A stretch of 43,412 nt of DNA from Gammaproteobacteria bacterium (GTDB taxonomy: Bacteria; Pseudomonadota; Gammaproteobacteria; Nitrococcales; Nitrococcaceae): the NCBI GenBank assembly GCA_030433275.1, contig JAUILK010000028.1, positions 1 to 43,412 on the forward strand. Reading direction: 5' to 3'. Positions 36,918 through 40,297 of the stretch are shown here, piece by piece. The notes beneath the pieces were generated by a model. The model was not told the DNA's origin. It saw only the letters and a list, made by a program, of their open reading frames with translations, and did no database searches. The position numbers were made by a program, and so were the translations under genes. How positions within the stretch are numbered: the stretch's first letter is position 1; each line of letters starts with the position of its first letter.

Positions 36918-37613
36918 TTAGTCGGCCACCTCGAGTCGATTCTGGACATCGTGGACTCCAGGGATGTACCAACAGTCCCAGCCAGCGATGCGTCGATTCT
37001 CTACGCTGTGGACTGAGCCGTGTAGGGATACCACGCGATCGTCTACAGCGACTTGTATTTGGATGCTATCGATCGCGGGTTCCTTTTCCAGCACCATTCG
37101 GATGGTGCTGGCGATCTCCTCGTCGCTGTCCCGTTCCGGTGGCTGGACGTGGAGACGGTTATCCACGTCGGCTGTTCCCGGTGTCCACCAACTCAAAACT
37201 TCGGCCAAACGCCGGTGGGACAAGCTGCCGATAACGCCCTCGAGCATGACCACGCCCTCGTGGGTACTGACGCGGATCCAATTCTGACTCGCAGGTGGTT
37301 GCGCGTGCGCGTCTAACACTTGCAACTCGATGAATCTCGGTTCTTGCATCAGAACGTGTGCCACGGCTTGGCGTAGCTCGTTATCCGGGCGGGGGCGCGC
37401 AACCTCGAGCCGGAGTCGATCATCGATGCCCGCGTTGCCTGCAATCCGATGGGCAGTTTGAATGGCGCGCCGTTTAGCTTCGATATCTGCTACCGTGCCT
37501 TCCAACCGCACGGCATCGCCTTGATGTACGTGGATGGGGTAACGTCGCACATTAATGGCCGGGTCATGCTCCAGGGCAGCCCGGATTTGGCTCTCGATGG
37601 AATCCCTGCTCAT
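36918..37613 (-). CDS. protein with three BON domains
   Basis: A 231-residue protein built of three BON domains (about 4-66, 75-150 and 160-231). Each ends in a Gly-x-x-(Asp/Asn)-Val-x-(Asn/Asp)-Arg-Leu-like strand; the second and third share the Trp-Trp/Trp-Tyr-x-Pro-Gly-x-x-Asp-Val-x-Asn-Arg-Leu turn. BON domains bind membranes or phospholipids and usually sit in the periplasm, as in OsmY. Here no signal peptide is seen: the protein starts at ATG 37613 (GGGAGG about 6 nt upstream) with Met-Ser-Arg-Asp-Ser-Ile-Glu-Ser-Gln. A 9-residue longer start (37640) adds no signal sequence either. It is therefore probably cytoplasmic or exported by another route. Monocistronic. Confidence 0.85.
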   Translation of the reverse strand: MSRDSIESQIRAALEHDPAINVRRYPIHVHQGDAVRLEGTVADIEAKRRAIQTAHRIAGNAGIDDRLRLEVARPRPDNELRQAVAHVLMQEPRFIELQVLDAHAQPPASQNWIRVSTHEGVVMLEGVIGSLSHRRLAEVLSWWTPGTADVDNRLHVQPPERDSDEEIASTIRMVLEKEPAIDSIQIQVAVDDRVVSLHGSVHSVENRRIAGWDCWYIPGVHDVQNRLEVAD

Positions 37614-37946
37614 TTGACCTCCCCAGCCTGGTAGCCACATCGCTTAAATAATAATGATCATTGAGCCTTGTCCTCGGTCCGTCAAGCGTGTTTTAGGTGA
37701 AGGATATGGCGAGCCATGTATAGCGGGCTGGTAGAGGACGGTGATGCAGAATCGTTTACAGAGAGGCCTGGAGAGTATAAGGGGCAACAAGGAAAGCGCA
37801 GCCCTGCGCCATCTGTTCTGGAACTAACGGGATATCCGGTTGCCTAACTTTGCTGATCGTCTGGGCGCGGCGTTTTAGGAAGCCAGATGAGGGTGGCGAG
37901 TTTGAGCTGGATAGAATGTTGATCATAACTTGTTGAAACGTATCGA
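37614..37946. other. intergenic region right of the BON gene; no gene seen
   Basis: About 330 bp with no convincing reading frame. A minus-strand frame at 37756-37968 lacks a ribosome-binding site and family signature. The left part should hold the promoter of the BON gene (AT-rich near 37645-37665). The right part leads into the plus-strand promoter described next. Confidence 0.4.
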
Positions 37947-37976
37947 TTGACATTTTCTGGAGAGGCAATCTATTAT
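37947..37976 (+). promoter_or_regulatory. near-consensus sigma70 promoter, plus strand
   Basis: TTGACA (37947-37952, perfect -35) and TATTAT (37971-37976, one mismatch from TATAAT) with an 18-bp spacer. Transcription would start near 37983 and run right into DNA with no long reading frame. It is the best sigma70 match I noticed in the window. The same place also offers a weak ribosome-binding site (GGAGAGG 37959-37965) and an ATG (37975), an alternative reading discussed in the findings. Confidence 0.55.
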
Positions 37977-37991
37977 GTTGCGCAGCAACAT
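37975..37991. repeat. inverted repeat overlapping the -10/start region (operator candidate)
   Basis: ATGTTGC (37975-37981) and GCAACAT (37985-37991) are perfect 7-bp arms around a GCA centre. It overlaps the end of the -10 element and the predicted start of the plus-strand promoter, the usual place for a repressor site. A hairpin in DNA or RNA is also possible. The binding protein is unknown; a PhaR-type PHA regulator is only a guess from location. Confidence 0.5.
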
Positions 37992-38000
37992 TTGTGAGAT

Positions 38001-38030
38001 AAAAAAAAGGGAGGCCATGAGGGGCCTCCC
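38001..38030 (-). terminator. Rho-independent terminator of the phaE-phaC transcript
   Basis: Read on the minus strand, an 8-bp GC-rich stem (GGGAGGCC with GGCCTCCC, 38009-38030, 6-nt loop) is followed by eight T (complement of 38001-38008). This is a textbook intrinsic terminator facing leftward, about 300 bp after the phaC stop and the first such signal downstream of it. Confidence 0.75.
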
Positions 38031-38173
38031 GGATAATTGTAAAGCGCTCTTCTTATTGGATTTTTGTGGTGTATTAAACTCTCAATGAGTCGGAGCGCTT
38101 TTTGATAAGTCGAACTCGGAACCCGCTCGCAAGCTGCCCTTGTATGGGTGGCCCACTGCTTCCTCCTCGATTC

Positions 38174-38200
38174 GCCCTCTCGCTAGAGAGGGCTTTTTTT
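38174..38200 (+). terminator. strong Rho-independent terminator, plus strand
   Basis: GCCCTCTC (38174-38181) and GAGAGGGC (38186-38193) form an 8-bp stem with a GCTA tetraloop, followed directly by seven T (38194-38200). The T-run exists only on the plus strand, so it ends a rightward transcript, although no rightward gene precedes it. This supports the candidate RNA from 37983. It also shields the convergent phaC gene from read-through. Confidence 0.8.
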
Positions 38201-38328
38201 AATTGCCCTCTACGCGGGAGCCACGCACAGTCAGTTTATCGGGCATTGTAGATGGCCGAGGTCGCTTGGCAAGCATTTTCGTTGTTGCGGTGCAATAATG
38301 GACTGTCTGTTCCGCTGTTACAGTGCGT

Positions 38329-39369
38329 TCAGCCGCATTGATGCAGCCATTCCACTAGGATGGGATACAGACGGCGATGAGCATGTTGGCTGATGAACAA
38401 GCCTAGGTGCCCGCCGGGCTGTTCCGCCTCGTGATAGGCGAGCGATCCGGTCAGATTTGCCAAGGCCTTTGCCGCTGCGGGTGGCACTAGGTGATCGGCC
38501 GTTGCATAAGCGTTGAACAACGGGCCGGTAAATCGGGTCGGATCCACGCTTTTGCCGCAGAGTCGCAGGTTACCCGCAACTAAGCCATTGGCTTGGTAGA
38601 AATCACGAACAAACTGAACAAAAGCAGCCCCTGCCTGGTCAGGGCTGTCGTACATCCATTGCTCGAGACGCAGGAATGCTTGTAACGCCTGTTCGTCGTC
38701 ACCTAATTCTGCCAATCGCAGATAGCGCCGATAGAGGAGTTGGAAAGGTTTTAGGCTGGTAAACAGAGTGTTGAGCCCGGTGGCAGGTACATTGCCCAAC
38801 GCTTGCGTCAGCCGCTCAATGTTGACGTGGCGGACGATCCGATAGAGCGTGTCTTGCGGGGTTTGAAAATCCACCGGGGTGGCAAGGGTGATCAGGCTGC
38901 GAACGCGTTCGCGTCGCAAGGCCGCGTAGCAGACGGCGAGTGTCCCACCCTGGCAGACGCCCAGCAGGGAAATGCGGTCGGTGTCGTGTCGGGCGACGAT
39001 GTTGTCCACCGCGCAGTCGATTTCATCCTCGATATAATCATCGAGCCGCTGAAAGCGGTCCATCGGTCCCGGGTAGCCCCAATCGAGTAAATAAACGGTA
39101 ATGCCGCCGCGCACGAGCGCCCCAATAACCGAGCGCTCGCAACTTAGATCGAGAATATAGGGGCGATTCACCAAGGAGTAGACGACCAGTAGTGGTATGC
39201 CCTCCCCGGAGCCGTAACGATAGAGCGTGGCCGTGCCTGAATGCGGTAGATCGCGCGCGGGCGTGCTGCCAGCGCTCACCGGCTGTAGCTCGCGCGCCCG
39301 GCGCAGCACCCTGGCAAGCTTGCTTTGCAGTTGGAGCGAATCGTTAGGACAGGATGTATCGTTGCTCAC
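38329..39369 (-). CDS. phaC: class III poly(R)-hydroxyalkanoic acid synthase subunit PhaC
   Basis: A 346-residue alpha/beta-hydrolase-type PHA synthase that polymerises (R)-3-hydroxyacyl-CoA into carbon-storage granules. The lipase-like box Gly-Val-Cys-Gln-Gly holds catalytic Cys139, with Asp292 (Thr-Ala-Asp-His-Leu-Val) and His321 (Gly-Gly-His-Leu-Gly). The spacing equals that of Cys149/Asp302/His331 in the Allochromatium vinosum enzyme. The short length and a phaE neighbour fix class III. It starts at GTG 39369 overlapping the phaE stop by 4 bp. A terminator for the message lies at 38001-38030. No phaA, phaB or phasin gene is adjacent. Confidence 0.93.
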   Translation of the reverse strand: MSNDTSCPNDSLQLQSKLARVLRRARELQPVSAGSTPARDLPHSGTATLYRYGSGEGIPLLVVYSLVNRPYILDLSCERSVIGALVRGGITVYLLDWGYPGPMDRFQRLDDYIEDEIDCAVDNIVARHDTDRISLLGVCQGGTLAVCYAALRRERVRSLITLATPVDFQTPQDTLYRIVRHVNIERLTQALGNVPATGLNTLFTSLKPFQLLYRRYLRLAELGDDEQALQAFLRLEQWMYDSPDQAGAAFVQFVRDFYQANGLVAGNLRLCGKSVDPTRFTGPLFNAYATADHLVPPAAAKALANLTGSLAYHEAEQPGGHLGLFISQHAHRRLYPILVEWLHQCG

Positions 39370-40208
39370 GAGCGCTTGTCCCTGTCGGGGCGAGATGTCG
39401 TCTGCGGTGGGCCGGTGGTAGTCGCGCGTAGGGCGGCGAGCTCTTTGCGCAACGCTGTGATCTCGTGTTGCAGCCGTATAGTGTCAATACGTTGCTGGCG
39501 CCTTAATCGATCGAGATGCCGCTGAGTATCTTCCACCGCGTGCCGGGTCGGTAATCCCATATACGCAAAAAGCTCATCCAGTACGGTCTGTAGAGCGAGC
39601 CGCAGGTCAGCCCAGGCGTTCAGCAAAGCGCTGATGGCTTGCGGATACGTCTCCGAGTGCAGAAACCGTTCATAGGTTCGCTCTGCCACCTCTAGCCAGT
39701 GATCGTACAGTTCACGAGTACTCCGAGTGGTCCTTTCGAGGGGGGCTCTCCTGGTTAGTTCTTGTTGATATTCGCTCAGAGTGGCCTGGTATAGCTCGCC
39801 GAGCTCCTGGGTATAACGCAAGGCGGCGGTTTGGTACCCATCGAGTGTGCGCTGCAGTGCTTCTAGGTTGGTTTGTTCTTTTTGCAGTGGGCCGATACAG
39901 GGATAGCAATGCGCTGCGAAGTGCGCGAAGGGGTGTGCGAGCCGATCTATGGAGAGCAACTGGCGAGCCAAGTCCAGCAGGACATTGACGGACTCGACCG
40001 ACCGAGCGACCTCCTCGTGCAGTTGCTCCAGTGCCTGGTTTAAATGCTCGCCCAAGGCCGTCGCCGCCTCGCCATCTCGCGCGAACGCGGCGAGCGCAGA
40101 CCAGCCTGCGGCCAACAAGATTGCCAGCGCCCCTTGTCCTTTTAGGAGATCACAAAGCAAGCCTTGAATTTCTTCCGGCCTTGAATGGTTTGCACTATCC
40201 TTTTGCAT
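39366..40208 (-). CDS. phaE: class III PHA synthase subunit PhaE
   Basis: A 280-residue partner of PhaC, needed for class III synthase activity. The conserved C-terminal part (about 165-245) includes Tyr-Asp-His-Trp-Leu-Glu-Val-Ala-Glu, Tyr-Pro-Gln-Ala-Ile-Ser-Ala-Leu-Leu-Asn-Ala-Trp, and Gly-Leu-Pro-Thr-Arg-His-Ala-Val-Glu-Asp-Thr-Gln-Arg-His-Leu-Asp; a coiled-coil-like tail follows. The N-terminal half is mostly helical and less conserved, and the protein is shorter than the usual roughly 350 residues. ATG 40208 is preferred over a GTG just before it; neither has a strong ribosome-binding site. It overlaps phaC (GTGA), so the two are made together. Confidence 0.88.
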   Translation of the reverse strand: MQKDSANHSRPEEIQGLLCDLLKGQGALAILLAAGWSALAAFARDGEAATALGEHLNQALEQLHEEVARSVESVNVLLDLARQLLSIDRLAHPFAHFAAHCYPCIGPLQKEQTNLEALQRTLDGYQTAALRYTQELGELYQATLSEYQQELTRRAPLERTTRSTRELYDHWLEVAERTYERFLHSETYPQAISALLNAWADLRLALQTVLDELFAYMGLPTRHAVEDTQRHLDRLRRQQRIDTIRLQHEITALRKELAALRATTTGPPQTTSRPDRDKRS

Positions 40209-40297
40209 CACTCGCTACTCGCCGGGTCTGCTGGGCGGATGTTCCCGGTTGGTAAATATAGGGTAACCCCTTGGGGTGAACCGGTGTGATCGGTTAC

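Follow-up and report, generated by a model that had tools for sequence, protein, structure and literature searches.

Between a BON-domain gene and the convergent PHA synthase genes phaC and phaE, the window (the whole stretch of 43,412 nucleotides analysed here, from a member of the Nitrococcaceae whose genus we take to be Nitrococcus) holds a promoter and a terminator enclosing about 215 nt without a long gene, and the question arises what this DNA encodes. The original prediction proposed an orphan small RNA that would either pair with the 3' end of the phaEC message or act independently in trans. Our analysis strongly supports a stand-alone small RNA (sRNA) gene on the plus strand. The best explanation, judged from the sequence, is that this gene probably encodes an sRNA of the PHB regulon, repressed by PhaR, released by PHB granules and blocking translation in trans via CUCCUC.

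The anatomy of the gene largely bears out what had been described. The promoter with its 18-bp spacer, the plus-strand terminator with its 8-bp stem and run of seven T, and the minus-strand terminator on the phaEC side are all present (Table 1). Within the 3-kb stretch that we scanned, three promoter sites with at least 9/12 matches compare with 1.2 expected in shuffles, and eight terminator-like sites with 2.8 expected. The longest plus-strand open reading frame in the sRNA region encodes 49 amino acids (38102-38251), and an ATG at 38017 is missing from two relatives (G004 and G001) in the alignment. The proposed hairpins are reflected in the predicted fold of 37983-38200 (-82.2 kcal/mol, z -4.2), which none of 200 shuffles equals in stability; four relatives give z values of -2.0 to -5.2. 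The CCTCCTC sequence, said to be unpaired, indeed falls in an open stretch, with 38161-38173 (TCCTCCTCG at 38161-38169 and the following bases) unpaired in the minimum-energy structure and 38153-38173 in the centroid structure. One hairpin precedes this stretch in Nitrococcus; in many other relatives a hairpin follows it. The name phaC rests on the neighbouring phaE and on the relatives, since only alpha/beta-hydrolase models pass the Pfam cut-off.

Table 1. Features of the predicted sRNA gene and its surroundings (positions in the window)
Feature	Position	Strand	Remarks
BON-domain gene	36918-37640	-	PF04972; occupies the phaB position of other genera
sRNA promoter, sigma-70 type, TTGACA, 18-nt spacer, TATTAT	37947-37976	+	11/12 matches; -35 box at 37947-37952
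Palindrome TGTTGC-GCA-GCAACA over the predicted start point	37976-37990	.	Predicted PhaR operator; half-sites spaced as in the published PhaR motif
Predicted sRNA transcript, about 215 nt	37983-38200	+	Start inferred from the -10 box
Hairpin GGGAGGCC/GGCCTCCC	38009-38030	+	With T8, acts on the minus strand as terminator of leftward transcription (phaEC)
Long stem-loop AAAGCGCTC...GAGCGCTTT	38041-38101	+	R1 model core; several relatives in family f5 show no such stem-loop
Hairpin GCTGCCC/GGGTGGC	38133-38152	+	Precedes the anti-Shine-Dalgarno stretch in this genus
Anti-Shine-Dalgarno stretch CTTCCTCCTCG	38159-38169	+	Presumed seed; unpaired from 38161
sRNA intrinsic terminator	38174-38200	+	Stem 38174-38193, 8 pairs, loop 4, T7 to 38200
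Leftward promoter-like site TTGCCA-16-TACAAT, phaC 3' flank	38245-38272	-	TACAAT kept in five aligned sequences
Second PhaR-type palindrome TGTTGCGGTGCAATA	38283-38297	.	Upstream of the leftward promoter
phaC, class III PHA synthase	38329-39369	-	Convergent neighbour of the predicted sRNA
phaE, class III PHA synthase subunit	39366-40211	-	PF09712, E 8e-24

The label "orphan" proves wrong, because the comparison of sequences indicates that the sRNA gene has been retained beside the pha genes across the order to which Nitrococcus and Spiribacter belong. The original prediction had made it a test whether close relatives preserve the promoter, stems and terminator, and these elements are indeed kept. 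A DNA search finds the region in two congeners at 86% and 82% identity; a partial match in a third congener (G003) and a weak one (E 0.026) in another genus (G007) follow, and the alignment supports all four. A covariance model of the core (R1), built from six sequences, matches 34 of the 54 order genomes at E 0.01, with phaB, phaC or phaR found in 28 of the 30 fetched R1 loci (one count over these loci omitted three, L087, L094 and L096). A PHA synthase match is present in 19 of the 20 order genomes that R1 does not match. When these 19 phaC loci were read, 11 displayed a complete promoter, palindrome, CTCCTC and terminator, often with a different 5' half, notably in family f5; two (L167, L172) were partial, and the remaining ones ended at a contig edge, held another gene or left no room. 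The last case is G006, which carries phaR and phaC with a phaB-phaC gap of 71 nt and has no R1 or R2 match (R2 being the model of the 3' module described below). In G005, G010 and G011 another gene lies beside phaC, and the sRNA unit is located after phaB.

Counts over the order refer to 50 of the 54 genomes, leaving out G002 (contig edge), G016 (no locus), and G022 and G029 (fetched locus without phaB or phaC). Their pha-side regions were located through R1 (27), phaC (18) or R2 (five: G032, G036, G046, G048, G052); those of G005, G010, G011, G012 and G014 were trimmed to 650 nt, and those of G015 and G019 redrawn after phaB. CTCCTC occurs in 48 of the 50 regions (dinucleotide shuffle mean 5.8); R2, used to locate five of them, itself includes the CU stretch. 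Among the 18 regions located via phaC rather than an RNA model, CTCCTC is found in 16, the misses being G006 and G053 (contig end). Named records carrying the element include Nitrococcus (among them Nitrococcus mobilis), Spiribacter, Alkalilimnicola (Alkalilimnicola ehrlichii), Methylonatrum and members of the Ectothiorhodospiraceae. Outside Nitrococcus the genes, as far as visible, run phaR, phaB, sRNA, followed by phaC and phaE in convergent orientation; beside the sRNA in Nitrococcus, phaB is replaced by the BON gene.

The palindrome over the start point was absent from the original reading. Its strict form, TGYTGC-N3-GCARCA, is found in 40 of the 50 phaB/phaC-side regions (dinucleotide shuffle mean 0), and in 41 of 50 the palindrome lies no more than 260 nt before CTCCTC (shuffle mean 0). 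The operator stands 48 nt or more inside 29 regions. In 25 of these, a promoter with 9/12 matches or better has its -10 box ending within the first 0-4 nt of the palindrome, and 2.3% of shuffled segments attain such a promoter score; G008, G015, G024 and G025 have no promoter of that quality ahead of it. In eight genomes, the palindrome with at most one mismatch is 1.7 to 3.6 times commoner than a reversed control. Of 23 phasin-domain matches, 20 have the core pattern TGC-N3-GCA in the 330 nt upstream and none (0 of 23) has the reversed pattern there; ten of these upstream regions contain the core as a pair 27 nt apart; upstream of phaR it was not found (0/7). The gene phaR is present in seven of eight genomes, the exception being G003 (95% complete), a congener in which the palindrome has decayed at the sRNA promoter (L004/L070).

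According to passages of PMC12542648, the PhaR motif of S. meliloti contains YGCRNYGCR, the mmgR promoter carries such a site, and PhaR of Cupriavidus keeps phasin genes repressed and is recruited to granules as PHB accumulates. The palindrome at the sRNA promoter is common to phasin genes, which places the sRNA in the predicted PhaR regulon; PhaR would bind at its operator, and by analogy with Cupriavidus PhaR the sRNA level should rise with PHB. On the other side of the region, the leftward promoter-like site and the PhaR-type palindrome upstream of it (38245-38297) are kept in several relatives.

The most widely kept piece of the sRNA is its 3' part, comprising the CU-rich stretch, a hairpin and the terminator. 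The model of this module (R2) was built from short-hairpin relatives, because MAFFT misplaced the anti-Shine-Dalgarno stretch of the long-hairpin ones. It matches 44 of the 54 order genomes at E 0.01, many of these matches being weak and some away from the pha locus. At 40 bits or more it matches 24 of the 54, and the best match outside the order reaches 39.5 bits; its E-values overstate significance, since at 0.001 it matches 41 of 369 genomes of the class and yet misses G000, the genome of the window.

The module covaries. In the MAFFT alignment of 12 distinct sequences, 97.8% of the cells pair, three of 15 pairs change on both sides, the middle hairpin has no broken pair, and the covariation score beats all 500 shuffles; two of five covariation measures in this unfitted alignment are not clearly above shuffles (30 and 318 of 500). 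In a set of 41 distinct sequences, which is fitted to the model and includes five rows that do not belong to the order, both partners vary in 13 of 15 pairs and covariation amounts to 0.302 versus 0.126 shuffled. GU cells exceed AC cells by 39 to 2 in the 3' module of the model-fitted alignment, with 22 of the 39 contributed by one terminator pair, and by 21 to 4 in the core; this excess favours a structure on the plus strand.

The 3' module also occurs in additional copies. Locus L080 contains it in tandem (1296-1367 and 1632-1703), 70 of 72 nt being identical downstream of unrelated 5' halves, and the second (upstream) module has its own palindrome. Further copies stand on separate contigs in G029 and G039, and in G026 at a distance of about 379 kb. 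At the paralogous modules L257 and L258 (G029 contig 275 and G026), repeated TGTACA-like elements upstream replace the PhaR-type palindrome, which suggests, as far as sequence can tell, control by another regulator. Near the copy in L258 lies a separate element, a glycine riboswitch (RF00504, 71 bits) at 2098-2195. Weak R2 matches off the R1 locus of G027 and G025 (L217 and L220, near 1501) display CTCCTCC, a hairpin and a terminator, and are possible further copies.

The same DNA can be read in other ways. An RNA acting in cis, which forms a duplex of 170-215 nt with the phaEC 3' UTR and thereby controls the stability or termination of the phaEC message, would fit the convergent layout, the minus-strand terminator at 38030-38009 and the adjoining convergent phaC of many genomes; the A-run and GGGA hairpin of that terminator occur in 37 of the 50 regions (shuffle mean 0.4). 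As the sRNA ends 128 nt before the phaC end at 38329, however, the antisense overlap proposed originally can involve the presumed 3' UTR and not the coding sequence, and it requires a phaEC message reaching about 38001. The A-run and GGGA pattern, a strict one to which G035 and G037 show near-misses, is missing from 13 regions, yet nine of these retain CTCCTC with the palindrome upstream, eight of them in genus g12 of family f5. Moreover, in five genomes taken as Spiribacter (G005, G010, G011, G012, G014), phaB and phaC are separated by about 1.2 kb, with the CTCCTC unit 142-161 nt behind phaB and away from phaC. The wobble asymmetry points to the plus strand, and the module copies elsewhere in G029, G039 and G026 likewise argue against a function in cis. 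We thus regard cis action as an unlikely account of the gene and, on sequence grounds, trans action as the better of the two options first put forward; in Nitrococcus, antisense pairing may add to the effect of the sRNA.

The leftward promoter-like site could, for its part, give an antisense RNA that ends near 38001 and spans the whole sRNA. Taking this RNA as the real product and the plus-strand features as its mirror image would account for the palindrome upstream of the site, for the TACAAT kept in five sequences, and for the TGCN3GCR that 28 of 48 regions contain within the final 190 nt ahead of the phaC end. We consider it very improbable, given that genus g12 keeps the plus-strand terminator and T-run where the leftward terminator pattern is absent, and that GU prevails over AC in both module and core. 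A promoter and terminator serving no regulatory RNA, be it a decoy transcript or just a terminator region with PhaR sites, would agree with PhaR-type sites flanking the region on both sides. The conservation of CTCCTC and the covarying hairpin exceed chance, however, and the 3' module is duplicated; in our estimate this reading is improbable.

The PhaR-repressed, trans-acting sRNA thus remains the preferred explanation. Gene anatomy, conservation, the palindrome shared with phasin promoters and the plus-strand covariation are its parts supported by sequence, and from them we infer transcription, PhaR binding, a role of Hfq, processing and targets, which would combine as follows. Without PHB, PhaR would occupy the start-point palindrome and stop transcription of the sRNA, as at phasin genes. 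Once PHB granules form, they would titrate PhaR, and the sRNA would be transcribed alongside the phasins. Its CUCCUC would then pair in trans with Shine-Dalgarno regions of target mRNAs, and their translation would be blocked. RNAs that repress translation with the help of Hfq usually have an unpaired anti-Shine-Dalgarno stretch followed by a U-tailed terminator. Hfq is probably involved here, as the unpaired CU-rich stretch, the hairpin (in many genera) and the U-tailed terminator have this layout, and hfq is encoded in all nine genomes tested. The relevant part of PMC12559287 shows this form of Hfq-dependent repressor for SisA. Processing of the sRNA may additionally leave a short 3' form, 45-75 nt in length; such a step, resembling that of S17 and ncS27, would fit the duplicated 3' module.

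Phasin messages were tried as preferred targets and rejected: the seed duplex averages -18.4 kcal/mol at 20 of 23 phasin starts versus -21.0 for 37 long frames of the window, a small background in which not every frame is a gene and the start positions are guesses.

Many bacteria use PHB storage as a main carbon switch, and industry too takes an interest in it as a target; RNA control of PHB storage is known for few cases, those named in part of PMC8401924 being MmgR, ArrF and Crc-linked RNAs. If true, a conserved sRNA at the pha locus with the predicted operator of the PHB sensor would link granule state directly to translation, and the PhaR site would offer a handle for finding counterparts in other PHB producers.

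At 1e-4, R1 matches six of 369 class genomes, and four of the six belong to other orders; none of these four loci has phaC, and one, L099, has a weak phaB-like match (29.8% identity). Among 30 fetched R2 class loci, CTCCTC stands at the expected place in 12, a count in which loci with a cut flank were examined at the wrong position, and phaR is found in four. The flanks of phaR were then tested without an RNA model, at 67 loci out of 109 genomes with PhaR. Promoter, TGC-N3-GCA, CTCCTC and terminator occur together at two of these 67 phaR loci outside the order (L272 and L281), and each of three altered operators gives 0 of 67; CTCCTC is identical when reversed, and a reversed Shine-Dalgarno sequence is unusable as a control. 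With the stricter palindrome, L272 alone passes among the phaR-flank loci. L272 and L281 represent two other gammaproteobacterial families, and the predicted design of promoter, operator, CTCCTC and terminator, as read from these loci, exists elsewhere but is not general.

A contig scan that included the downstream palindrome element returned 53 loci, 11 of them with phaC; the remainder includes several Cupriavidus. Six records of Cupriavidus or related bacteria (L102, L103, L121, L125, L140, L153) match the downstream palindrome near a shared ATAATTCATAATTATG, and the pha queries are unmatched there. In phaR loci of other gammaproteobacterial families (L236 and L237 near 1500, L232 at 1501-1572), an anti-Shine-Dalgarno stretch and a terminator follow an ORF that appears phasin-like by eye, with no Pfam match for those of L232 and L237; the element is possibly a 3'-UTR-derived sRNA. 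A layout of CTCCTCC, GAAAGG/CCTTTC hairpin, CGCAC and terminator recurs in several families (L231, L249, L238, L272), and L231, L238 and L249 have no Rfam match at gathering score.

We offer only tentatively, and as a rather doubtful proposition, that PhaR was repeatedly or ancestrally given an anti-Shine-Dalgarno sRNA across the Proteobacteria and that PHB granules thereby control translation at large. If true, granule growth would free the phasin genes and also release an RNA by which a group of messages is silenced. The present order, the families of L272 and L281, and rhizobial MmgR would be cases of one design, and copies such as L257 and L258 with other promoters would connect this RNA module to different signals.

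No Rfam family reaches its gathering score anywhere in the window, and relaxed searches yield below-threshold matches mainly to anti-Shine-Dalgarno sRNAs. A literature search covering few subscription journals found no title or abstract opening reporting this gene, and a term search of the available text of PMC8632094 gave no match for pha. MicX of Vibrio (21.7 of 75 bits) and tsr31 (23 of 50) were taken as chance matches. Betaproteobacteria toxic sRNAs (RF02278) score 25.6 bits in the window and 29.4 in the best relative, the gathering score being 50. For anti-hemB of Burkholderia (RNA 7, RF02837) the best relative reaches 28.7 bits against 49.5, and the window stretch searched has no match at E 10 or below. 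The alpha-r8 family (RF00519), which contains MmgR, gives 16.0 bits in the window and 24.1 in the best relative, with a gathering score of 41. The conserved unpaired alpha-r8 10-mer UUUCCUCCCU, as given in part of PMC12559287, is absent, 38159-38169 of the window reading CUUCCUCCUCG and sharing UUCCUCC only. The neighbourhood differs as well: alpha-r8 is linked to the N-formylglutamate amidohydrolase (FGase) gene in most species, whereas the present sRNA lies between BON and phaC, and in relatives between phaB and phaC.

Several likenesses of design are nevertheless apparent. Sub-threshold matches of several relatives to anti-hemB span the anti-Shine-Dalgarno stretch, hairpin and terminator. 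With ncS27/bdhR1 (RF02278) and Bordetella S17 the sRNA shares a CU-rich anti-Shine-Dalgarno stretch beside hairpins and a terminator. Passages of PMC5688073 and PMC11722255 report, for ncS27 and S17, long RNAs alongside short ones made by processing, the word PhaR being absent from the available text of PMC11722255. Like MmgR (alpha-r8) of S. meliloti and SisA-D of Caulobacter, the predicted RNA is short and terminator-ended and carries an unpaired anti-Shine-Dalgarno stretch (PMC12542648, PMC12559287, PMC8401924, each in part). A close parallel is MmgR, which the same parts of these three sources present as an anti-Shine-Dalgarno sRNA repressed by PhaR and tied to PHB. MmgR depends on Hfq and limits PHB. 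Its promoter has a PhaR (AniA) site of TGC-N3-GCA spacing (PMC12542648, in part), which here takes the form of a predicted site, a strict palindrome in most regions. Unlike MmgR, the present sRNA is about 215 nt long in this genus and belongs to Gammaproteobacteria. Failing the alpha-r8 tests of score, 10-mer and neighbourhood, it would yet, by analogy, work like MmgR.
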